NCBI GenBank assembly: GCA_017463155.1
Contig: JAFTPT010000003.1
Location: 1 to 55,819, forward strand
Origin: Blautia sp.
Lineage (GTDB): Bacteria; Bacillota; Clostridia; Lachnospirales; Lachnospiraceae
Direction of reading: 5' to 3'
Length of the DNA: 55,819 nt
Below, piece by piece: positions 5,987 through 29,319 of this stretch (positions are counted from its first letter, which is position 1; each line of letters starts with the position of its first letter). The notes under the pieces are model-generated. The model made no database searches and was not told where the DNA came from. It worked only from the letters and a program-made list of their open reading frames with translations. Both the position numbers and the translations under genes were made by a program.

Positions 5987-6148
5987 GCACTTTCTTAAAA
6001 GTTTTTCCAGTAAAACTTATTCGGTTTGGAATGTCACAGGATTGACCAGTGATTAAACATGAGTACCGGTTAACGGACAGTGAGCTTGTTTTCAAAACAT
6101 CCCTGTGCTACAATTCAAATTTACAGACAATTCTATATTGAGGGAAAT

Positions 6149-6453
6149 CGCTCACAGTTTAATGTGAAGGAGTGAGGACGAACGCTGCCGAAGAGAGCGA
6201 AGATCTCTCTGCCCGCAAGGGCCCGGGCAACGGCTCGATGAACTAAGATCCAACTGCAACTAACAGAACGCTCAGCAAAGGCTTCGCGTTCTGAGTTTCC
6301 GTAGGATCTGGATTTCATCTTGCCTACAAACGCCCTCAAAAGCCCTTGCTCAGCAGAGATGATCTTCGCGCTTCCGGCAGCTGGTTCATCCGGCACCCTT
6401 ACAGCGTTAATCGGTTCGCGTAGGAGGTATCGCAGCTCGAGACCAGTGGCTAT
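6149..6453 (+). repeat. Element A left arm, containing structured unit
   Basis: The unit at 6197-6369 is closed by a stem GCGAAGATC-TCTCTGC (6197-6212) with GCAGAGA-T-GATCTTCGC (6353-6369): 16 bp with one bulged T. Inside are a TGCCCG/CGGGCA hairpin (6210-6229), an AGATCC/GGATCT stem, and nested within it AGAACGC/GCGTTCT around a small AGC/GCT hairpin. The same layout appears in the three other arms in the window. Confidence 0.75.
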
Positions 6454-6876
6454 CTGATTTGTTGGGAAGTGGAATGGAACGAAGAACCGTCCCCACGTTT
6501 TGCCCGAGACCAGCGGCTAACGCTGCGCGCAGGTGAGCGAGTGGAACGAAGAACCATCCCCTCGTTCCGTTGCCGGAAACTGACGTCGTGCGTTCTGGAA
6601 CGCGAAGCGTTCCACTTGCCAGAAGATACTCTCTGGGCGACAGCTGAGCATTTATAGCGAGCGCAGCATTCCGTGTTGGGGGAAGGTGCAGAGATATGCT
6701 GGCTGTGTAAGGCCGCTTCGCAGTCGACGCCGGGGATCGCGAGCATAGTTTCGTGTGCGGAGGCAGTCATGGAACACGCGATCGTTCCATGTACAATAGG
6801 ACTGGCATTCGTTCCATGACTTTGCCGGAGCACATGATCATAAACGGCGCAGCGATCCTAAGGAAACAAGCCAGGT

Positions 6877-7182
6877 ATAGCCGTTGGTCTCGAGCTGCGA
6901 CACCCTGTGAGCGAACCGATTAAAGCAGGCCGGAGATTGGACGGAACAGATGCCAGATGTGCGAAGATCGTCTCTGCCTGTAGCAAGGGCTTTTCAGGGC
7001 GCCTTTAGGAGAGACGAGATCCAGCTCCTACGGAAACTCAGAACGCGAAGCCTCTGCTGAGCGTTCTGCAAGTTGAAGTTGGAGATTAGCTCGACTCGAC
7101 GTTGCCCGGGTCCTTGCGGGCAGAGAGATCTTCGAATCCTGGCAGCGTCCGTCCTCTTCCTTACTACTTTTAACTGTGAGCG
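6877..7182 (-). repeat. Element A right arm, inverted copy of the unit
   Basis: Read on the minus strand this arm repeats the left arm. The closing stem pairs 7120-7135 with 6961-6978 (GGCAGAGA-GATCTTCG with CGAAGATC-G-TCTCTGCC), again with one bulged base. The hairpins at CCCGGG and AGAACGC/GCGTTCT are kept. Confidence 0.75.
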
Positions 7183-7211
7183 AATTAACATATAAAAAGG
7201 AGGAATTTGTT

Positions 7212-11806: not shown

Positions 11807-14800
11807 ATGAAAAAACAATCGGGAATCAGAAGATATCTTTCATTGCTGCTGGCAGCGGCCATGATCCTGCAGCAGTCCGGATATCTTGTCTATGCTTCCG
11901 AGGATGGCTCCGTGACGACGGAGGCAGCTGCACACGTCTCCGAGGCGGAGGAAGCTCCGGCGGAAAAGCCGGCAGAGAGCGCGCCTGCAGCGAAGGAAGC
12001 CCCGGCACCGAAGCCAGCAGCCCCTGCACCGGCAGCGAAGGAAGCTCCGGCAGAAAAACCGGCATCCCCTGCGCCTGCAGCGAAGGAGGCTCCGGCGGAA
12101 AAACCGGCGGAATCTGCGCCTGCAGCACAGGAAGCTCCGGCAGAGAAACCGGCGGAACCTGCGCCCGCGTCCGAAGAGGCGCCTGCGGAAAAGCCGGCGG
12201 AGGAAGTGCCGGCAGAACCGGCACCGGAAGAGACACCTGCAGAGGAAGTAGTTCCGGCAGAAGACGGCCAGGGTGAAGAAGCTGCACCGGAAGAGGCAGT
12301 GGAAGAGGAACCGGCCGAAGAGGAGGTTCCCGAGGAGGAGGCTGAGGAGAAGGAAGTTTCTGTTTCCTTTGCCGTCGAGGAGGGAGCCCATGTCCTCGTT
12401 GATGGACAGGACGTCTCCAAAGAGACGGTCAAGGTCACGGAAGGCAGACTGACCTTCTCTGTCAAGGCGGATGAATCCTACAAGATCACCGGCGTCAAGG
12501 TGGACGGCGAAGGCAGTGTCAGCGAAAAAGAGACCGCTGTCTATGAAGCTGCCGGCCTGGCCGAAGGAGATGTGATCAAGGTTTCCGCTGAAAAAGAAGT
12601 GAAGACAGTCTTTGATTATAAGGACGGTTATGTGTCCGTGCATGCCGTAGCGGAAAAGGAAGCGGAGCTTCCGGCCGGCTCTGAGCTGCGCGCGGACTAT
12701 ATCGCTCCCGGATCAGGCCGCTACAGCCAGGCTGTGGCCCAGATCAAGGCGGCCTACGGCTACGGCGACGATGTCGTGTTCGAAGGCGCGATCGTGGACG
12801 TTTATTTCTTATATAAAGGAAACCGCATCGAGCCGAAGGATGGCACCGTTGACGTCAGGATCGATTTCCTGACCAAAGTGAATGCGGATGTGGACGAGGT
12901 CCTGAATGAGGGTGTCATCCATATCGAGGATAACGGAAGTGTCGAGAAGCTTTCTTCCGGATATGTGAATGAGACAGCTGCCGGGGACGTAAGCTCCATG
13001 GGTTTTACGTCTGACAGCTTTTCGCTGTATGCAGGCGGAAAGCTGGGCACGAACAATGCACCGCAGGTAGGCGCAGGCAGTGATCTGGCCGCGTATATGA
13101 CCGAGATCTCGATCAACGGCGATGCTTATACGAACAGTGAAGGCGAGTGGGTGGCCAAGTCCGGCAAGCCCTACGAGATCACGATGTATTTTGCAGAATC
13201 TTCCGGCAATCAGTTCCCGGACAGCGGAACCATGACCTACAACATCCCCATCGGGTTCTCGGCAGATGATTTTTCCGATAAGACCATCTCCATCAACGTG
13301 ACGGATGCCGGCGGACATGTGCATACGCTTCCGGGCAATGTGTATTCGGTTACGGGAGGCGTGCTGACCTTCAACTGGAACGAAGCAGGCGGAGAAGCCT
13401 ATGAGCAGCTGAAGGCAGCCGGAAACGCGGCATTCAGCCTTGCCATCTCCGGTGAGTTCAGCAAGGATGCCGACAGCGTAAAATTCGGGGCCAATACAGA
13501 TACGGAGGTACAGATCGACAACACCTCCGAGGTGACTATCCGGAAGAGCGGAAATTTTGACAGGGAAAAAGGCGTTATCCACTACACGCTGACTGTGGAT
13601 TCCAAGGGTCACAATGAACACGTCACGGTCAACGACACACTGTCCGGAAGCAGCAACCGGCTGAGCTATGCCGCGGAACCGAAGGCGACCAGCAGTGATT
13701 CCTCAAAAGCATATTCGACCGACGACAGCTTTTTATTTAACAGTGACAAGACTGGTTTTTCCTGGGATATCGGTACGATGGAGGACGGGGAGACCGTGAC
13801 CATTACCTACGACTGCAAGGTGGATTTCGGAAACCTGACCGGTAAGGGTACGGTGGAGGAGACCAAAAACGACGTTGTGGTCAACAGCAACCAGGATCCG
13901 GAGCCGGATAAGGACAGCCATAATTTTGAAAACCAGATCGAGTGGTATACGATTACGAAGGACGCGCCCGAGGTAACAGAAGAGAACGGGATGAAAAAGA
14001 CCGTCACCTGGAAGATCCATGTCAATCCCGAAAGGCTGGGCTCCATGGCCGGCAAGACCATCACCGACAAGATCGGAAACGGCAAGGAGATCATGGATTA
14101 CAGCGGCAGCGGGATCACCGTCACGCGCACGCCGAAGGAGGGCGCTCCGTCGACTACGACCGTGAACTGGGGCGAGGGCGGCCTTGTAAAGGGCGACGAT
14201 ACCTGGACCTGGACGGTGCCGGCAGACGACGGGATCTGCTCCTATGATATCACCTACACGACCGAGATCGATGTGACCGGCAAAGCCGGTGATACCCCGA
14301 TCAGCAACGATGTCGAGACCCCGGACGGTGTGAAGGGGCAGGGCAGCGGCAAGGTGGGTCCGGGACCGGACCAGGCCGCCGGCGTCGAAAAGACCCATAC
14401 CGAAATCGATATGAATAACAAGACGGTCACGTGGAAAGTCACATTGACCGTACCGAAGCTTGGCCTTACCACGGCGGTGGTGATAGATCATGCGCCGAAG
14501 TGCGACGCGAATCCGAACCTGGTCGATAATTTTGTCTTTGATTCAGAGACTGATGTACAGATCGATGGACTCCTTTCGGGCGAGACCAAGGAAATCGCGC
14601 GTGTCTCCGGGTCACAGCAGGATGATCTGGTCATCACATTCTACCAGGATGAGGCAAAGACAAAGACCGGTCTTCAGCCGAGTGCCGGCGAGCGGAAGGT
14701 GACCGTCACTGTCAAGACGACCCTCAATGAGGAGTGGCTGGAGGATTATCCGGCCGGCGGCAGCCACGGCGGACATACGAACAATGTGACCTTTACCGCC

Positions 14801-17800
14801 GCCAACGGAGATGATCTGACCGCGAACGATACGGTCACGCCTGCCGAGGCGGAGATCAAAAAGGAAGGTGAATACGCCGGAACGGTCACCATCGATGGTA
14901 TCGAGTATCCGGCCTACCTGTTCAAGCTTATACTCCGCGGTGTGAATGAGGATACCTTTACGTTCACCGACACGTTCGACAGCAGGCTCCGTTATCTCAG
15001 CGTCGCGGAGGCGGGCAGCCAGCTGGGAGATACCTACTTTATCGAGCATTTTTCGAACCTGTTCAACAATTATCGTGGGGAAGCCGTGATTCCTTCGGTC
15101 AGCGGGAACACCATGACCTTTACCGTCACGGCTGACAGCCTTCCCAAGGAGGACGGCAAGTATCTGGATGCGTATCTGCTCCGGTATTTCATGGTCGTCA
15201 AGGATAAGGCCACGCTGGACGCCATGAAGGAAGAGGCCGGAAAATCGAGCGGCTACATCGTATCGCTGAGCAACACGGCGACCTGGGATGGCTCCTCCAG
15301 CAGCGCAACGGTCACCTATGAGTATCCGGGCCTTTCCAAGGAAGCCGCACTGAAGGATGACAATACGCCCAACCCGGTCCTCACCTATACGCTGACGGTC
15401 AATCCCACCGCGGCGAAGATCGGCGACAAGGAGACCCTTACGCTCACGGATACGTTCACGAACCTGAGTGTCGATTATTCCACGATCAAAGTCAATCCGA
15501 GTGAAGGCGTGACCTGGAATGTCTCGGGATCCACGGCTACATTCAAGATTCCGAATGAGACGGCGATCACCATCAGCTATTCCGGCCGTCCGCTCAAGTC
15601 GGGGACTGTGTCCAACCAGGCCGAGGTGGAAGGCTTTACCGCGACGACAACGAATAATGCGACGGTCAATACGTCCGGTTCCGGATCTGCGAGCAATTAC
15701 TCCATCCGTCTTCTCAAGCACGAGAGAGATCTCATGAACAAACCCCTGAAGGGCGCGAAATTTGCGCTCTTTAACGGGGACGGCACACCCGTCAGATATA
15801 CGAAAGGCCCGAGGAACGGCCAGCAGGTCGAGGTCGAGACAGGAGAGAACGGTATCGCCACTGTGTCCGGAAACTCCGCGAATGACGGCTGGTTCCTGGA
15901 GAAAGGGAAGACCTATTATCTTGTCGAGACCGAGGCACCGGAAGGATATGAGAAAAAGACCACGCATTATACCTTCCAGATCGCGGATATTCCGAATTAT
16001 GATGCGGATCCCCGTATCTACTACAACAACGACATCATCCGTGTCCAGAATGACAAGCAGCCCCAGGGCGAGTTGGAGATCACCAAGACCTTCAGCGGTG
16101 ACGAGATTCCGGCTACGGAGCAGGCGAAGGTGAAATTTGACATCACCGGACCGAATAATTACAAGGAGACAAAGTACTACAGAGAGTTTACAAAAGGCGT
16201 CCTGAAGCTCACCAAGCTTCCGGTCGGCACATATACCGTCACCGAGACCAATCCGACCTTGAACGGATATGAGCTTGTGAAGACATACAAGGTGGACGGG
16301 AAGGAAGCCAAGGCCGCTTCCGCAGAGGTCAAGAACGGCACGACCGCAAAGATCACCATCACGAATACCTACAACAAGCAGGAAGGAAACCTGGAGATCA
16401 CCAAGACATTTGCGGGCGACACAGATTCGCTGACAGACGCGGACAAGGCAAAGATCACGTTCGAGATCACCGGCCCGACCGGGTTCACGAAGGTCACAAA
16501 GACCTACGCTGACTTCACAGATGGCAAGCTGACGCTGTCGAATGTGCCGCTCGGTGTATATACCGTTACCGAGTCAAACGCAAATGTTGATGGATACAAG
16601 CTTGAGACGAAGATCCAGGTGAATGATAAAGACGCAGAAACCGCCTCTGTGGAGATCAAGGACGGAGACAATGCGAAGATCACATTCACCAACACCTATG
16701 ACAAGCAGGAAGGGAACCTGGAGATCACCAAGACGTTCGTAGGCGATACCAAAACCTTGACGGATGCGGACAAGGAGAAGATGACTTTCGAGATCACCGG
16801 GCCAAAGGGATTCACAACGGTTACAAAGACCTACGCGGACTTCAAGGACGGTAAGTACACGCTTCCGAACGTCCCTCTCGGCGAGTATGAGGTCAAGGAA
16901 TCCAATGCAGGTGTTGATGGCTACAGCGTTGTGACAACGTATCTGGTAGGCAATGATAAGACCAGTAAGGTCAAGATCGCGGACGGCGAGACAAAGACCA
17001 TCGCCGTCACCAACACCTACGAGCAGCTGAAGGGCGGCCTGACCATTGTCAAAGAATTCGCGGGCGACGCGGTGACTTTGACGGATGAGCAGAAGAAAGC
17101 GATGACCTTTACGGTCACCGGTCCGGATGATTACAAGACGACGGTGACTTACGATCAGTTCACGGACGGCAAATACACGATCGAGGACCTGGTACCGGGC
17201 GACTATACAGTTGAAGAGACTAACGCGGACATTCCGGACTATGAAGTGACCACGACCTACGAGGTGGGCGGCAAGGAAGGAAAGACCGCCACGATTACCG
17301 GTACGACCGGTGGGTCCGTGACTGTCACCAACACCTACAACAAGCAGGAAGGAACCCTGGAGATCACCAAGACATTCGCGGGCGACGCGATCAAGGATGC
17401 CGACAAGGCGAAGATCACATTCGAGATCACCGGCCCGACCGGCTTCACGAAGGTCACAAAGACCTGCGCGGACTTCACGGATGGCAAGCTGACGCTGTCG
17501 AATGTGCCGCTCGGTGAGTACACCGTCACCGAGACCAACACGGGTGTCGAGGGCTACACTGTCGTTACGACCTACAAGGTCGGCGAGACCGAGACCAGCA
17601 AGGCCACGATCGCGGACGGCGAGACGAAGACCATCGACGTCACCAATACCTATACGCAGCTGAAGGGCGGCCTGACGATCACCAAGGCATTTGCAGGTGA
17701 CGCGGTGACGCTGACCGACGCCCAGAAGAAGGCGATGACCTTTACGGTCACCGGACCGGACAGCTACAACACGACAGTCACTTATGACAAGTTCGCAGCG

Positions 17801-20455
17801 GACGGCACCTACACCATCGAGGATCTGGTGCCAGGCGACTACACGGTCGTCGAGACCAACGCGGAAGTGCCGGACTACGAAGTCACCACGACCTACGCGG
17901 TGAACGGCGAAGCCGGCAGTACGGCCACGGTCACCAGCGAAAAAGGCGGTTCTGTGACTGTCACCAACACCTACAACAAGCTGGAAGGCAGCCTCAAGAT
18001 CACCAAGACCTTCGAAGGCGATACCGACGCGCTGACCGATGAGCAGAAGAAGGCGCTGACCTTTACGATCACCGGTCCCGAGGGCTTTACCGAAGTGACA
18101 AAGACCTACGCGGACTTCACCGACGGCGCGCTGACGCTTTCGAACATCCCGCTCGGTGAGTACACCGTCACCGAGACCAACACGGGTGTCGAGGGCTACA
18201 CTGTCGTTACGACCTACAAGGTCGGTGAGACCGAGACCAGCAAAGCCATGGTTGCCGACGGTGAGACCAGCACCATCGCGGTCACGAACAAGTACGAGCA
18301 GCAGAAGAACGGTCTGACGATCGTCAAGACCTTTGCAGGCGATGCGGTTACCCTGACCGATGAGCAGAAGAAGGCGCTGACCTTCACGATCACCGGCCCG
18401 GACAACTACAAGAGCACGGTCACTTATGACAAGTTTACCGATGGCAAGTACACGATCGAGGAGCTTGTTCCCGGCGAGTACACCGTCGAGGAGACCAACG
18501 CGGAGCTTCCGGATTACAAGCTCACCACGATCTACGCGGTGGATGGCAAGGAAGGCAGCAAAGCTGCCGTTACCGGCACGGCCGGCGGTACCGTGACCGT
18601 GACCAATACCTACGAGCATGAGACCGGCAGCCTGGAGGTCAAAAAGACCGTGGCCGGCGCAGCGCCTGACACGGAAAAGGAATTTGAATTCACCGTGAAG
18701 CTTAGTGATGAAACCATCAACGGCACCTACGGTGAGATGGAATTCAAGGAAGGAACGGCTGTCTTTACGCTGAAGCACGGCGAGAGCAGGAAGGCCGAAA
18801 AGCTTCCCACAAAGATCACCTATACCGTATCCGAGAAGGATTACACGGCAGACAACTATGCGAAGCTGGAGGATGTGACCGGTACGATCGAGAAGGACAA
18901 GACCGCGGAAGCAGCGTTTGAAAACCACCTGACTAAAAAGACCGTCAAGATCAGCAAGGTCGATGTCGCTGATGGCAAGGAGCTTCCTGGCGCCGAGATC
19001 GAGATCATCGATACCGAGACCGGTGAGACCGTCGAAAAGTGGACCTCCACTGACCAGCCCAAGGAAGTAACGCTGGATGTCGATAAGACCTACACGCTTC
19101 GCGAGACTGTGGCACCGGAAGGCTACACCGTGACCACCGATACCACCTTCACACTCGATAAGAACGGCGATATCGACAAGGAGAAGACGACGACCACCGT
19201 CAAGGGCGATGTCCTTCTGGTGGAGGACGAGGCGACCTTTGTCAAGGTGCGCAAGGTCGATGCGGCTAACGGTGAGGAACTGCCGGGCGCGGTGATCGAG
19301 ATCCGCGACAAGGATGACAACGTCGTCGACAGCTGGACCTCCACGGAAGAGGATCACGAGATCACTGGCCTGAAGACCGGCGAGGAATATAAGCTGGTCG
19401 AGGTGACTGCACCGGAAGGCTACGAGGTGACCGCCACGACGACCTTCACGATCGACGAGACCGGAAAGGTGACCTCCACGGGCAGCACCACGACCGACTC
19501 CGAAGGCAAGACCGTTCTGCTCGTCGAGGATGACAGAGGCAGCAAAGAGCTGACCGTGCAGAAGGATCTCCGCTATATGAACAGCGAGGAGATGAAGGCC
19601 AAGAGCGGCACCTTCTACGTGGCTGTGTACGATAAGGGCACAGACAATCTGGCCTACGGTACCAAGGTTGAAGCACTTACCTACAGTGGTACCAGCACTG
19701 CTACCGTGACCTTTAAGGGATTGGTTTCCGGCAAGGAATATGAAGTATTCGAGGTGACGGATGCAAACGGCACCGAAAAGATCGGCGAGCTCGGAGGTAC
19801 CACCGAGGATGGAACGCAGTTCTTTGTGGAGTTTGACGAGGAAGGCCAGTCGGAGACCGTCGTCTTTGACGAGGCTACGCAGGTGACGACCATCTATCTC
19901 TACAACGAGTTCATCTCGATCCCGAAGGGCTACTATCTGGATGGCAAGCTGACCATCACCAAGAAGTTCCTGGGAGCCGATGGAAAGGCGAAGAAGAGCA
20001 GCGAGAAGTTCTATGCCGGCATCTTTACGGACAAGGATCTGACGACCCTTGCGTCTGTCGAAGACGGCGTGGTAACGCAGAATATCGTCGAGCTTGATCT
20101 GGCCGGCGGCTCCGAGGTGTCCGAGGAGATCATGGTCCAGGTCGCCGAGGAAGGCTACAGCCTGTACATCGCCGAGACCGACAAGGACGGCAAACCGATC
20201 AACAAGAGCAAGTTTGCCTACGATGTCTCCGTCAGCAACAAGGGCAAGGTGACCTTCGATGTGGAGAACAACTGGGAGGCTTCCGTGACCATCAAGAACA
20301 GCGAGAAGCCGAACGCGACGCCGACTCCGACCAAGAAGCCGACCGTCAAGACCGGCGATGATACGCCTGTCGGCATGTATCTGTCCATCCTTCTGATGGC
20401 AGCTGTGCTGGCCGTGGCCGCAGCGGTGATCGTCAGAAGACGCCGCAGAGCATAA
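11807..20455 (+). CDS. Giant SpaA/Cna-B repeat adhesin (2882 residues), sortase-anchored
   Basis: Signal peptide at residues 1-31 (basic start, hydrophobic core, Y-A-S cleavage region), then a six-fold 15-residue Ala/Pro/Glu/Lys repeat (49-138), isopeptide-type beta domains to about 1300, a SpaA domain (about 1300-1418) with the A-P-E-G-Y motif, eight tandem ~107-residue Cna-B-like domains (1421-2273), a ninth divergent one, two SpaA-like domains (about 2378-2575), and a C-terminal module shared with the adhesin at 2-1603. The end reads V-K-T-G-D-D-T-P-V, hydrophobic helix, R-R-R-R-R. Such proteins act outside the cell as stalks or adhesins stiffened by Lys-Asn isopeptide bonds. AAGGAGG precedes the ATG and the gene has its own promoter and terminator. 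No sortase gene is in the window. Confidence 0.93.
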   Translation: MKKQSGIRRYLSLLLAAAMILQQSGYLVYASEDGSVTTEAAAHVSEAEEAPAEKPAESAPAAKEAPAPKPAAPAPAAKEAPAEKPASPAPAAKEAPAEKPAESAPAAQEAPAEKPAEPAPASEEAPAEKPAEEVPAEPAPEETPAEEVVPAEDGQGEEAAPEEAVEEEPAEEEVPEEEAEEKEVSVSFAVEEGAHVLVDGQDVSKETVKVTEGRLTFSVKADESYKITGVKVDGEGSVSEKETAVYEAAGLAEGDVIKVSAEKEVKTVFDYKDGYVSVHAVAEKEAELPAGSELRADYIAPGSGRYSQAVAQIKAAYGYGDDVVFEGAIVDVYFLYKGNRIEPKDGTVDVRIDFLTKVNADVDEVLNEGVIHIEDNGSVEKLSSGYVNETAAGDVSSMGFTSDSFSLYAGGKLGTNNAPQVGAGSDLAAYMTEISINGDAYTNSEGEWVAKSGKPYEITMYFAESSGNQFPDSGTMTYNIPIGFSADDFSDKTISINVTDAGGHVHTLPGNVYSVTGGVLTFNWNEAGGEAYEQLKAAGNAAFSLAISGEFSKDADSVKFGANTDTEVQIDNTSEVTIRKSGNFDREKGVIHYTLTVDSKGHNEHVTVNDTLSGSSNRLSYAAEPKATSSDSSKAYSTDDSFLFNSDKTGFSWDIGTMEDGETVTITYDCKVDFGNLTGKGTVEETKNDVVVNSNQDPEPDKDSHNFENQIEWYTITKDAPEVTEENGMKKTVTWKIHVNPERLGSMAGKTITDKIGNGKEIMDYSGSGITVTRTPKEGAPSTTTVNWGEGGLVKGDDTWTWTVPADDGICSYDITYTTEIDVTGKAGDTPISNDVETPDGVKGQGSGKVGPGPDQAAGVEKTHTEIDMNNKTVTWKVTLTVPKLGLTTAVVIDHAPKCDANPNLVDNFVFDSETDVQIDGLLSGETKEIARVSGSQQDDLVITFYQDEAKTKTGLQPSAGERKVTVTVKTTLNEEWLEDYPAGGSHGGHTNNVTFTAANGDDLTANDTVTPAEAEIKKEGEYAGTVTIDGIEYPAYLFKLILRGVNEDTFTFTDTFDSRLRYLSVAEAGSQLGDTYFIEHFSNLFNNYRGEAVIPSVSGNTMTFTVTADSLPKEDGKYLDAYLLRYFMVVKDKATLDAMKEEAGKSSGYIVSLSNTATWDGSSSSATVTYEYPGLSKEAALKDDNTPNPVLTYTLTVNPTAAKIGDKETLTLTDTFTNLSVDYSTIKVNPSEGVTWNVSGSTATFKIPNETAITISYSGRPLKSGTVSNQAEVEGFTATTTNNATVNTSGSGSASNYSIRLLKHERDLMNKPLKGAKFALFNGDGTPVRYTKGPRNGQQVEVETGENGIATVSGNSANDGWFLEKGKTYYLVETEAPEGYEKKTTHYTFQIADIPNYDADPRIYYNNDIIRVQNDKQPQGELEITKTFSGDEIPATEQAKVKFDITGPNNYKETKYYREFTKGVLKLTKLPVGTYTVTETNPTLNGYELVKTYKVDGKEAKAASAEVKNGTTAKITITNTYNKQEGNLEITKTFAGDTDSLTDADKAKITFEITGPTGFTKVTKTYADFTDGKLTLSNVPLGVYTVTESNANVDGYKLETKIQVNDKDAETASVEIKDGDNAKITFTNTYDKQEGNLEITKTFVGDTKTLTDADKEKMTFEITGPKGFTTVTKTYADFKDGKYTLPNVPLGEYEVKESNAGVDGYSVVTTYLVGNDKTSKVKIADGETKTIAVTNTYEQLKGGLTIVKEFAGDAVTLTDEQKKAMTFTVTGPDDYKTTVTYDQFTDGKYTIEDLVPGDYTVEETNADIPDYEVTTTYEVGGKEGKTATITGTTGGSVTVTNTYNKQEGTLEITKTFAGDAIKDADKAKITFEITGPTGFTKVTKTCADFTDGKLTLSNVPLGEYTVTETNTGVEGYTVVTTYKVGETETSKATIADGETKTIDVTNTYTQLKGGLTITKAFAGDAVTLTDAQKKAMTFTVTGPDSYNTTVTYDKFAADGTYTIEDLVPGDYTVVETNAEVPDYEVTTTYAVNGEAGSTATVTSEKGGSVTVTNTYNKLEGSLKITKTFEGDTDALTDEQKKALTFTITGPEGFTEVTKTYADFTDGALTLSNIPLGEYTVTETNTGVEGYTVVTTYKVGETETSKAMVADGETSTIAVTNKYEQQKNGLTIVKTFAGDAVTLTDEQKKALTFTITGPDNYKSTVTYDKFTDGKYTIEELVPGEYTVEETNAELPDYKLTTIYAVDGKEGSKAAVTGTAGGTVTVTNTYEHETGSLEVKKTVAGAAPDTEKEFEFTVKLSDETINGTYGEMEFKEGTAVFTLKHGESRKAEKLPTKITYTVSEKDYTADNYAKLEDVTGTIEKDKTAEAAFENHLTKKTVKISKVDVADGKELPGAEIEIIDTETGETVEKWTSTDQPKEVTLDVDKTYTLRETVAPEGYTVTTDTTFTLDKNGDIDKEKTTTTVKGDVLLVEDEATFVKVRKVDAANGEELPGAVIEIRDKDDNVVDSWTSTEEDHEITGLKTGEEYKLVEVTAPEGYEVTATTTFTIDETGKVTSTGSTTTDSEGKTVLLVEDDRGSKELTVQKDLRYMNSEEMKAKSGTFYVAVYDKGTDNLAYGTKVEALTYSGTSTATVTFKGLVSGKEYEVFEVTDANGTEKIGELGGTTEDGTQFFVEFDEEGQSETVVFDEATQVTTIYLYNEFISIPKGYYLDGKLTITKKFLGADGKAKKSSEKFYAGIFTDKDLTTLASVEDGVVTQNIVELDLAGGSEVSEEIMVQVAEEGYSLYIAETDKDGKPINKSKFAYDVSVSNKGKVTFDVENNWEASVTIKNSEKPNATPTPTKKPTVKTGDDTPVGMYLSILLMAAVLAVAAAVIVRRRRRA
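11951..12220 (+). repeat. Six in-frame 45-bp repeats (Ala/Pro/Glu/Lys-rich)
   Basis: Six consecutive 15-codon units beginning at 11951, 11996, 12041, 12086, 12131 and 12176, each starting E-A-P-A-(E/P)-K-P-A. Unit number could change by slippage without shifting the frame. The encoded segment is probably an extended, wall-spanning or low-complexity linker. Confidence 0.85.
16067..18625 (+). repeat. Eight tandem ~320-bp repeats encoding Cna-B-like domains
   Basis: Units begin at 16067, 16385, 16712, 17033, 17351, 17666, 17987 and 18308. Two subtypes are visible: one with I-T-G-P-x-G-F and K-T-Y-A-D-F (units 2, 3, 5, 7) and one with G-P-D-x-Y and V-T-Y-D-x-F (units 4, 6, 8). From unit 3 on they alternate, so recent expansion probably duplicated a two-domain block of ~640 bp. 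Confidence 0.88.
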
Positions 20456-27889: not shown

Positions 27890-28671
27890 TCGATCGCTTC
27901 ATAATGGATATCCGTAAATATTTTGCCTACGCCCGGTATTCCGCCTGGTCGGATCTGAAGGCGGAGGTGGCCAGCTCCTACCTGAACTGGCTCTGGTGGA
28001 TCCTGGATCCGCTGATGTTTATGCTGGTGTATACCTTTATCGCCGGCGTGGTGTTCAAGAGCAGGGTGGATTATTTTCCGCTGTTCGTCTTTATCGGCCT
28101 GACGATCTGGGACTTTTTCAGCAAGAATGTCCAGGGCTCGGTCAAGATGATGCGGCTGAATGTGGGCATCATCTCCAAGGTTTATATTCCCAAATATATC
28201 CTGCTTCTGCAGCGGGTGATGGTGAACGCCTTCAAGATGATGATCTGCTGGGGACTGATCGTCATCATGATGATCATCTACCGGGTGCCGGTCACCTTCA
28301 ACATCCTGTACCTGATCCCGGTGCTGATCGAGATCACGCTTTTGTCCTTCGGGATCGGCTGCCTGGTCATGCACTTCGGCGTCTTTGTGGATGACCTGTA
28401 CAATGTGGTGCAGATCGTGCTGCGGCTCATGTTTTACATGTCCGGGATCTTCTACTCCATCGAGGATAAGGTCGAGGATCCGCTCAGGACGATCATGATC
28501 TCGGTGAATCCCGCCTCCATGCTGATCAACTCCGCCCGGTTATGTGTACTGTATTCGAGCGCACCGTACCGGAAGCTCATGCTGATCTGGGGCGTGGTGT
28601 CCGTGTTTGTATGCTGGCTCGGGGTACACGTCGTCTACAAATACGAAAATAGTTACGTGAAGGTAATGTAG
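27886..28671 (+). CDS. ABC-2 type polysaccharide/teichoic acid export permease (TagG/Wzm-like)
   Basis: 261 residues with about six membrane helices and a short cytoplasmic N-terminal helix, typical of TagG/Wzm permeases. It carries polymer across the membrane with the ATPase encoded at 29405-30166. The gene is coupled to tagD by ATGA. Its stop codon lies immediately before the left end of element B, which separates it from its ATPase partner by more than 700 bp, although such pairs are normally adjacent. Confidence 0.9.
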   Translation: MIDRFIMDIRKYFAYARYSAWSDLKAEVASSYLNWLWWILDPLMFMLVYTFIAGVVFKSRVDYFPLFVFIGLTIWDFFSKNVQGSVKMMRLNVGIISKVYIPKYILLLQRVMVNAFKMMICWGLIVIMMIIYRVPVTFNILYLIPVLIEITLLSFGIGCLVMHFGVFVDDLYNVVQIVLRLMFYMSGIFYSIEDKVEDPLRTIMISVNPASMLINSARLCVLYSSAPYRKLMLIWGVVSVFVCWLGVHVVYKYENSYVKVM

Positions 28672-28672
28672 G

Positions 28673-29319
28673 GCTCACAGTTTAAAGGAACAGAGAGGAC
28701 GTACGCTGCGGATTTCGAAGATCTCTCTGCCCGCAAGGTCCCGGGCAACGGCTCGGCGAGCTAAGCTCCAACTTCAACTTACAGAACGCTCAGCAAGGGC
28801 TTCGCGTTCTGAGTTTCCGTAGGAGCTGGATCTTGCCTCGCCTAAGAACGCCCTGAAAAGACCTTGCCTGGCATAGAAAGATCTTCTTCTCCAGCAGCTG
28901 TACTGTCCGATCTCTGTGTGGCTTTAATCGGTTCGCCCGGAAGCCACTGCTGCTGACGGCCAGAAGTTAGCGCTGCGCGAACGATCCGCTGTAGGGTCCT
29001 GACAAATTCTCCCAACGCGTCATACTGCGTTCGCCGGAAGTGTACAGCTGTCGGCCAGGGGTTACCGCTTCGCGCGCTATCGGTTGATTTGTCAGGATGA
29101 TACAGCTGCAGGTGGATGAAAATCCATCTCTGCTGAGCAAGGGCTTTTGAGGGCGCATTTAGGAGAGGCAAGATCCAGCGCTTACGGAAACTCAAAACGC
29201 GAAGCCTTTGCTGAGCGTTTTGTAAGTTGTAGTTTGCGCTTAGCTCGCCTCGACGTTGCCCGGGGCCTTGCGGGCAGAGAGGATTTTTATTACCGCAGCG
29301 TACACTGATTAACTGCAAT
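28673..29319. mobile_element. Element B: second copy of the inverted-arm element, inside the exporter operon
   Basis: Left arm about 28673-28910, right arm (inverted) about 29098-29319, shorter centre than element A. It starts G-CTCACAGTTTAA as in A, but the right end has decayed (AACTGCAATG for AACTGTGAGCG). The centre holds TCCTGACAAAT / ATTTGTCAGGA inverted (28997-29007, 29087-29097) and two copies of the GGCCAG..GTTA.CGCT.CGCG module (from 28958 and 29053) that also occurs in element A's centre. The closing stem of the left unit pairs 28695-28711 with 28869-28886; that of the right unit pairs 29119-29133 with 29274-29287. No protein is credible. The rest of the gap to 29404 holds only the ATPase ribosome site. 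Confidence 0.75.

Follow-up and report, generated by a model that had tools for sequence, protein, structure and literature searches.

A dispersed family of large intergenic hairpins in Blautia whose covarying fold suggests folded DNA rather than RNA

Two inverted pairs of long hairpins are found in a contig of Blautia sp. (GenBank assembly GCA_017463155.1, contig JAFTPT010000003.1, positions 1 to 55,819). We refer to this whole stretch of 55,819 nucleotides as the window. The stems of the hairpins differ by changes that affect both sides together, and a preliminary description took these changes to imply selection for pairing, in either a structured RNA or a recognised DNA hairpin. The locus therefore raises two questions: which of the two molecules is kept, and whether paired changes of this kind are a sign of selection.

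Element A (6133..7195, both strands) was delimited using profile matches and inverted repeats (I1-I3). It contains a left arm module (6133-6465, +) and a right arm module (7195-6865, −), each a profile match, separated by a spacer that holds part of a second palindromic module. The arms of A form an inverted pair that is 86% complementary over 153 nt, and its left outer inverted end (6145..6165, +) is partnered by 7166-7186 (21 nt, 86%; I3). Element B (28665..29304) is also an inverted pair, 82% complementary over 189 nt. In each element, two arms stand head-to-head, the plus arm preceding the minus arm. The four arms were present where they had been described: 6197-6369 (+) and 6961-7135 (−) in A, and 28695-28886 (+) and 29119-29287 (−) in B. 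Matches to model R1 place the arm cores at 6213..6351 (+; R1 positions 1-139, helices P2-P8; 159.8 bits) and 6981..7119 (−; 151.8 bits) in A, and at 28731..28869 (+; 159.7 bits) and 29135..29273 (−; 151.4 bits) in B; all four arms belong to the 17-arm training set of R1. A is flanked by a glutathione peroxidase gene on one side and by a short ORF and then an E1-E2 ATPase gene on the other. B has a gene for an ABC-2-like membrane protein (under the Pfam cut-off) on one side and one for an ABC ATPase on the other. A listing of ORFs across both elements revealed no evident gene within A or B.

The concerted changes were borne out by reading the arms. The closing helix P1 of the left arm of A pairs GAAGATC (6199..6205, +) with GATCTTC (6361-6367). 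In the right arm of B, these become AAAATCC (29119..29125) and GGATTTT (29281-29287), corresponding to four base-pair swaps. The inner stems AGATCC/GGATCT, AGCTCC/GGAGCT, and AGCGC/GCGCT, as well as AGAACGC/GCGTTCT and its variant AAAACGC/GCGTTTT, were all found. The account of the closing stem, said to be common to three arms, holds overall but required two amendments: the 3' side of the left arm of B is GCATAGAAAGATCTTC rather than GCAGAGA-GATCTTC, and the quoted 3' blocks, although present, are separated by one base in the other three arms.

Other repeats occur in the same region. The second palindromic module, R, is about 268 nt long and was aligned from 20 copies; its partial copy in the spacer of A spans 6661..6871 (+; profile match, 2.8e-50). 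In the window's genome, R either shares elements with arms or occurs alone (window 6661-6871; L031, L032, L034-L036, L038-L045, L047, L049, L054, L055). Changes on both sides were seen in 13 of its 32 predicted pairs, and a DNA search of 59 other genomes did not find it. Short palindromic repeats with GAACCGTCCC are located in the spacer of A (6472-6499 and 6539-6566) and also inside some arms. They look REP-like, and closely similar pieces of 25-35 nt occur in genomes G002, G026, G030, G072, and G081. At L037, L048, and L051-L053, the arms carry a further palindrome at the P6/P7 junction, the insert being itself complementary. Elsewhere in the window, positions 11807-20455 comprise a 2,882-aa ORF for a giant surface protein, in which SpaA, DUF5979, and DUF7601 domains are present.

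The covariance model and genome search proposed in the preliminary description were carried out using R1, a model of 139 positions trained on 17 arms from three genomes. The window's genome contained 13 full-length arms (E below 1e-26) and extra pieces at contig ends. R1 matches were obtained in 18 of 64 genomes of the same genus (E ≤ 1e-4). The number of arms per genome varied from one in G003, G007, and G028 to 18 in G083, 27 in G069, 31 in G013, and at least 51 in G076. An order-wide search yielded matches in at least 6 of 392 genomes, all in the same family and representing 5 of 173 genera; these figures are lower bounds, as the filters were strict and eight candidates were scored per genome. 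A 20-base apex pattern was found in at least 116 stretches of named genome contigs. Among the matches listed, 114 of 116 were labelled Lachnospiraceae, Blautia, Eubacterium, or other Clostridia, and these included the cultured bacteria Blautia schinkii DSM 10518 and Eubacterium plexicaudatum ASF492. One match in Burkholderiaceae and one in Acidobacteriaceae are probably due to chance (about four were expected) and were left out of the setting counts. A phage origin was set aside, the exact apex pattern having no match in viral contigs. We found no earlier description of the arms in the open-licence literature, and they are a large and apparently undescribed family of intergenic hairpins of Blautia/Lachnospiraceae gut bacteria.

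The genomic setting was evaluated for 94 single arms with enough flanking DNA, using simple ORF calls and after contigs judged to be duplicates had been removed by hand. The centre of the arm lay within an ORF of more than 200 aa in none of the 94 cases, and 93 arms were flanked on each side by a gene-like ORF, the neighbours being in tandem in 50 cases, divergent in 24, and convergent in 19. In the tandem settings, the arm was on the strand of the genes in 26 cases and on the opposite strand in 24. This random strand and the intergenic placement argue against a cis-acting RNA leader or terminator. In the loci that were read, arms were single or in inverted pairs; L127 and L131 alone held two arms in the same orientation. 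The largest cluster of ORFs in arm loci was that of ABC ATPases, and the listed clusters of ORFs beside arms included no transposase family. ORFs that we take to resemble PD-(D/E)XK nucleases recurred near arms in five loci of three genomes.

From the outside in, the fold consists of the closing stem P1, P2, P3 (GGGC/GCCC), P4, P5, P6 (RACT/AGTY), P7, and P8. In the outer stem, P1/P2, the sequence varies freely and self-complementarity is retained. The core, P3-P8, has kept its internal loops and the unpaired motifs GCAAC, GARCTAA, AACTnCRACT, AGTYTCCGTA, TGGATYT, and CTAAA..CGC. Giving one vote to each of 14 genomes, 14 of 57 unpaired columns were at least 90% conserved, compared with 8 of 78 paired columns; the gap in mean conservation was small (0.71 versus 0.65). 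The strand opposite '+' folded lower in 93 of 93 arms, using either RNA or DNA parameters, and the conserved C·T/T·C mismatches are G·A/A·G on that strand. This is a hint, not proof, that the strand opposite '+' is the one that is read.

Covariation was evaluated in several ways. Both sides had changed in 27 of the 40 pairs among the 17 arms from which R1 was built. Paired cells amounted to 92.9% as compared with 80.2% in shuffles, none of 500 of which reached the observed value, and with 30-50% in slid comparisons. Of the five measures used, one did not exceed chance: further pair types numbered 39 versus 36.8 in shuffles, a value reached by 123 of 500. We also developed an R-scape-like test with a tree-preserving null, in which parsimony substitutions on a FastTree tree were moved among columns along branches. 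The statistic was the APC-corrected G, evaluated using 60 null alignments, and the alignment was fitted to the structure and comprised 80 of 101 rows after removal of near-identical and gappy ones. In this test, 18 of 38 structure pairs were significant (E < 0.05), and no column pair outside the structure was, out of 8,385 column pairs tested in all. When 74 rows were aligned with MAFFT on sequence alone, 7 pairs were significant: 6 among 30 structure pairs and 1 within two columns, with none elsewhere. Covarying pairs thus had statistical support once more homologues were aligned; a lack of such support was one of the outcomes that the preliminary description had named as grounds for refutation. 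A weak antisense match, 6232-6324 (−), was dropped from both covariation tests, the per-genome pair counts, the strand-folding comparison, and the attC-box counts; it was kept in the 102-arm pair-cell counts and the conservation votes.

The exchanges in the helices were mostly between Watson-Crick pairs. Using the model structure, the 3,617 cells of 102 arms included 861 two-sided changes, 46 one-sided changes to another standard pair, and 298 unpaired cells; G·T was seen in 67 cells and A·C in 88. When each pair was scored a single time per genome, G·T occurred in 29 combinations and A·C in 31, and in 86 combinations with a transition-type Watson-Crick polymorphism, 10 also had G·T and 14 also had A·C. 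The sequence-only alignment gave 50 G·T versus 84 A·C. Using pairs chosen by RNAalifold, G·T exceeded A·C, with 27 versus 9 of 1,040 cells in G013 and 21 versus 5 of 573 cells in the 17-arm set. This excess is a weak RNA-like sign. As a control, we counted SRP RNA from 30 genomes of the same genus using its RNAalifold structure: 210 of 1,020 cells were G·U and 3 were A·C (20.6% and 0.3%, respectively), and one-sided changes outnumbered two-sided ones (58 versus 35). The G·T share of arm helix cells was 0.9-3.7% across structures. Like for like, using RNAalifold, it was 2.6-3.7% in the arms versus 20.6% in SRP RNA. The ratio of one-sided to two-sided changes was reversed relative to SRP RNA, being 11 to 83 in G013 under RNAalifold. 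The control is imperfect in that it sets a single-copy orthologue against a repeat family; the contrast is nonetheless large. Overall, the data suggest that the kept entity is folded DNA rather than RNA, since wobble pairs are rare and, under a fixed structure, no more frequent than A·C, unlike in SRP RNA, and the orientation of the arms is random relative to tandem genes. Of the two possibilities originally offered, the recognised DNA hairpin is thus favoured, and rare wobble and random orientation weigh against the structured RNA.

In G083, the single arm of the unit lies within near-perfect 20-bp inverted ends, TGATGTCGGGGTCAAAAGGG. Among 18 elements with both ends, 8 had perfect 5-bp target duplications. 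The mean match of the flanking 5-mers was 0.73 in the expected register versus 0.24-0.42 in registers of another centre; registers that share the expected centre (7, unshifted; 3, shifted by two) gave 0.71 and 0.78. Based on the inverted ends and the target duplications, the G083 element moved as DNA. The same genome contains derivatives of 63-79 bp that lack the core and are short deletion derivatives; the ends may suffice for movement. No target duplications were found in G013 (20 copies), G069 (5), or G076 (7), and in these genomes it is therefore dispersal that points to movement. The G013 unit has a conserved unpaired foot, ACGGACGC, before the stem and GCTGT after it (20 copies). This foot contains GACG, the reverse complement of CGTC, adjoining the stem; GTAG was not seen in it. 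The foot is not the same in G083 and G076. Upstream of the foot, in several of the G013 loci (L144-L163), the flank/left-foot junction (..GGACGC) occurs in tandem copies with locus-specific units, as at L144, L145, L149, and L155. Ends of the G083 type had 67 matches within 3 mismatches. Those of the window type, to which the left outer end of A belongs, had 17 matches, recurred at other genome sites, and were also present without full arms. No transposase was noticed in the 15 loci read of the 67, and none was found in the three armless loci read for the window type. The ends vary between genomes, and the folded core is common to them.

Related sites revealed turnover of the stems. In two very close genomes, the same site (L273:1840-2060 and L327:1340-1560) holds arms in opposite orientation between near-identical flanks (neighbour ORFs 85-97% identical among the rows listed). 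The two cores are similar; the outer stems are unrelated yet each is self-complementary. These observations would be consistent with two insertions, with an inverted pair from which each genome lost a different member, or with an inversion accompanied by replacement of the stems. At a site shared by two species, L225/L258, the orientation is the same, the outer stems are wholly changed, and the core motifs are retained. The closest copies in G013 differed by 0.85 one-sided versus 1.46 two-sided changes (13 comparisons). DNA template switching can introduce paired changes in a single event (PMC8794818), and homogenisation of arms and inversion of spacers by this process have been described (PMC8604942; PMC8794818). 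Template switching predicts just such a two-sided excess among the closest copies (PMC8794818; PMC8604942), and paired changes are accordingly not proof of selection by themselves. Thus, the covariation on which the preliminary description relied was confirmed, but the conclusion that it implies selection for pairing was too strong by itself. Correction of one side of an arm by its other side, which that description had named as grounds for refutation, may act as a mutational source. Selection on the fold is argued for by the unpaired positions, which are conserved across genomes.

These data bear on two explanations that dispense with a recognised DNA fold. One holds that the arms belong to a family of structured non-coding RNAs that act in trans or resemble ribozymes and whose gene has spread as a repeat. 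Like the structured RNAs of Rfam, the arms have a secondary structure supported by covariation, together with conserved loops; the complexity of the fold, the good folding of the opposite strand with RNA parameters as well, and the excess of G·T over A·C where RNAalifold picks the pairs are also in its favour. We nevertheless consider an RNA unlikely given the scarcity of G·T relative to SRP RNA, its failure to exceed A·C with fixed structures, the 46 one-sided standard changes set against 861 two-sided ones, the random orientation relative to tandem genes, and the range of copies per genome from one to at least 51. Moreover, an Rfam search of the whole window at gathering thresholds returned tRNA alone, and a permissive search of six loci returned five chance-level matches and no family. 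The other explanation is that the arms are neutral remains of palindromic repeats, with a functionless fold whose complementarity is kept by template switching alone. It would account for the prevalence of two-sided changes even between the closest copies, and the orientation and stem replacement at the shared site match template switching as described in PMC8604942 and PMC8794818. However, the same process should also have paired the mismatches and loop motifs that are conserved in 14 genomes. The core motifs stayed at L225/L258 when the outer stems were replaced completely, and the arms have been amplified in several genomes. Neutral remains are accordingly improbable as an explanation.

If the arms are a DNA fold recognised in trans, known systems offer candidates for the recognition. 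REP/BIME/REPIN repeats, served by TnpA-REP (RAYT), are likewise dispersed, non-coding intergenic palindromes with an unpaired foot and frequent inverted pairs (PMC3733652; PMC8266576), and folded single-stranded DNA is the TnpA-REP substrate (PMC8266576). According to PMC3733652, REPs are 20-40 bp long and carry GTAG or CGTC tags, and the CGTC superfamily is likewise without a known transposase. The arms exceed this size: the core alone measures about 140 nt and includes several conserved internal loops, the model has 139 positions, and whole palindromic units are longer. If the arms were oversized REP repeats moved by a Y1 transposase (IS200/IS605, RAYT-type), this would explain the ACGGACGC...GCTGT foot beside the palindrome in G013 and the inverted pairs. 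Such an origin is nonetheless highly improbable in view of the size of the arms and the distribution of Y1_Tnp (PF01797). This family occurs in 40 of 64 genomes and in 11 of the 18 that bear arms, being missing from the other 7, including G013 and G083 (several assemblies are incomplete; completeness of G083 is 90%). Its presence across the 64 genomes gives no support for a Y1 transposase as partner. A second candidate is a folded recombination site similar to attC, used by an integron-like or Xer-exploiting tyrosine recombinase. In attC sites, boxes surround a short unpaired spacer, and the hairpin is variable. The arms share with attC and with the attC-like OTH-22-1 motif a structured DNA hairpin, conserved boxes, an unpaired spacer, and a variable end; by eye, P5-P8 has a similar layout of an AAC box, a short unpaired spacer, a second box, and a variable hairpin. 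Tyrosine recombinases under the integron cut-off are also common, occurring in 35 of 64 genomes (E ≤ 1e-20). We still consider such a site very unlikely: GTTRRRY was present in 0 of 99 arms and RYYYAAC, an attC box named in PMC8632094, in 7 of 99, while GTARR was present in 89 of 99. No cassettes were seen, and arms are single or in inverted pairs, with the same orientation only in L127 and L131 among the loci read. The integron integrase TIGR02249 scored above its cut-off in 0 of 64 genomes and is unsupported as partner.

The arms of G083 further resemble MITEs: they are bounded by terminal inverted repeats and 5-bp target duplications, contain no gene, and have internal deletion derivatives. 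They differ from MITEs in that the ends vary by genome around a shared folded core, that no duplications were detected in G013, G069, and G076, and that neither the 15 G083 loci nor the three armless window-type loci revealed a parent transposon sharing their ends. The arm family thus acts like REP/BIME or MITE yet lacks, or only partly shows, the defining features of each. We favour, at slightly better than even probability, the reading that the arms are non-autonomous mobile DNA, giant REP/BIME or MITE in kind, whose folded core is recognised in trans. Under this reading, each arm would be one unit, a long imperfect palindrome that folds as single-stranded DNA or extrudes as a cruciform. A trans-acting enzyme would recognise the folded core, and the strand that it reads may be the one opposite '+'. 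Many of the paired changes in the stems would arise in single events, by template switching within the hairpin, while selection would keep the loops; the outer stems would drift, probably through palindrome correction at the DNA level. A and B would each be two such units head-to-head, as in BIMEs.

More tentatively, the arms may represent a distinct class of mobile element. Its substrate for transposition would be a folded DNA domain of ~140-200 nt that has conserved non-Watson-Crick internal loops on one strand and is served in trans by an enzyme not yet linked to the recognition of folded DNA. If this were true, the arms would be a DNA counterpart of structured RNA, and the class would be marked by outer stems of free sequence, by G·T/A·C symmetry, and by arms that face opposite ways at a shared site. 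Covariation is usually read as strong evidence of structured RNA. The arms covary strongly without the G·U signature, which SRP RNA of the same genus shows by the same counting, and would thus be a case of structured DNA that evolves in an RNA-like manner. They would allow selection to be separated from template-switch correction as the origin of paired changes. The presence of arms in the cultured Blautia schinkii DSM 10518 and Eubacterium plexicaudatum ASF492 makes their transcription, folding, and mobility testable in these bacteria, and the arms could offer a route to an enzyme able to recognise large folded DNA.
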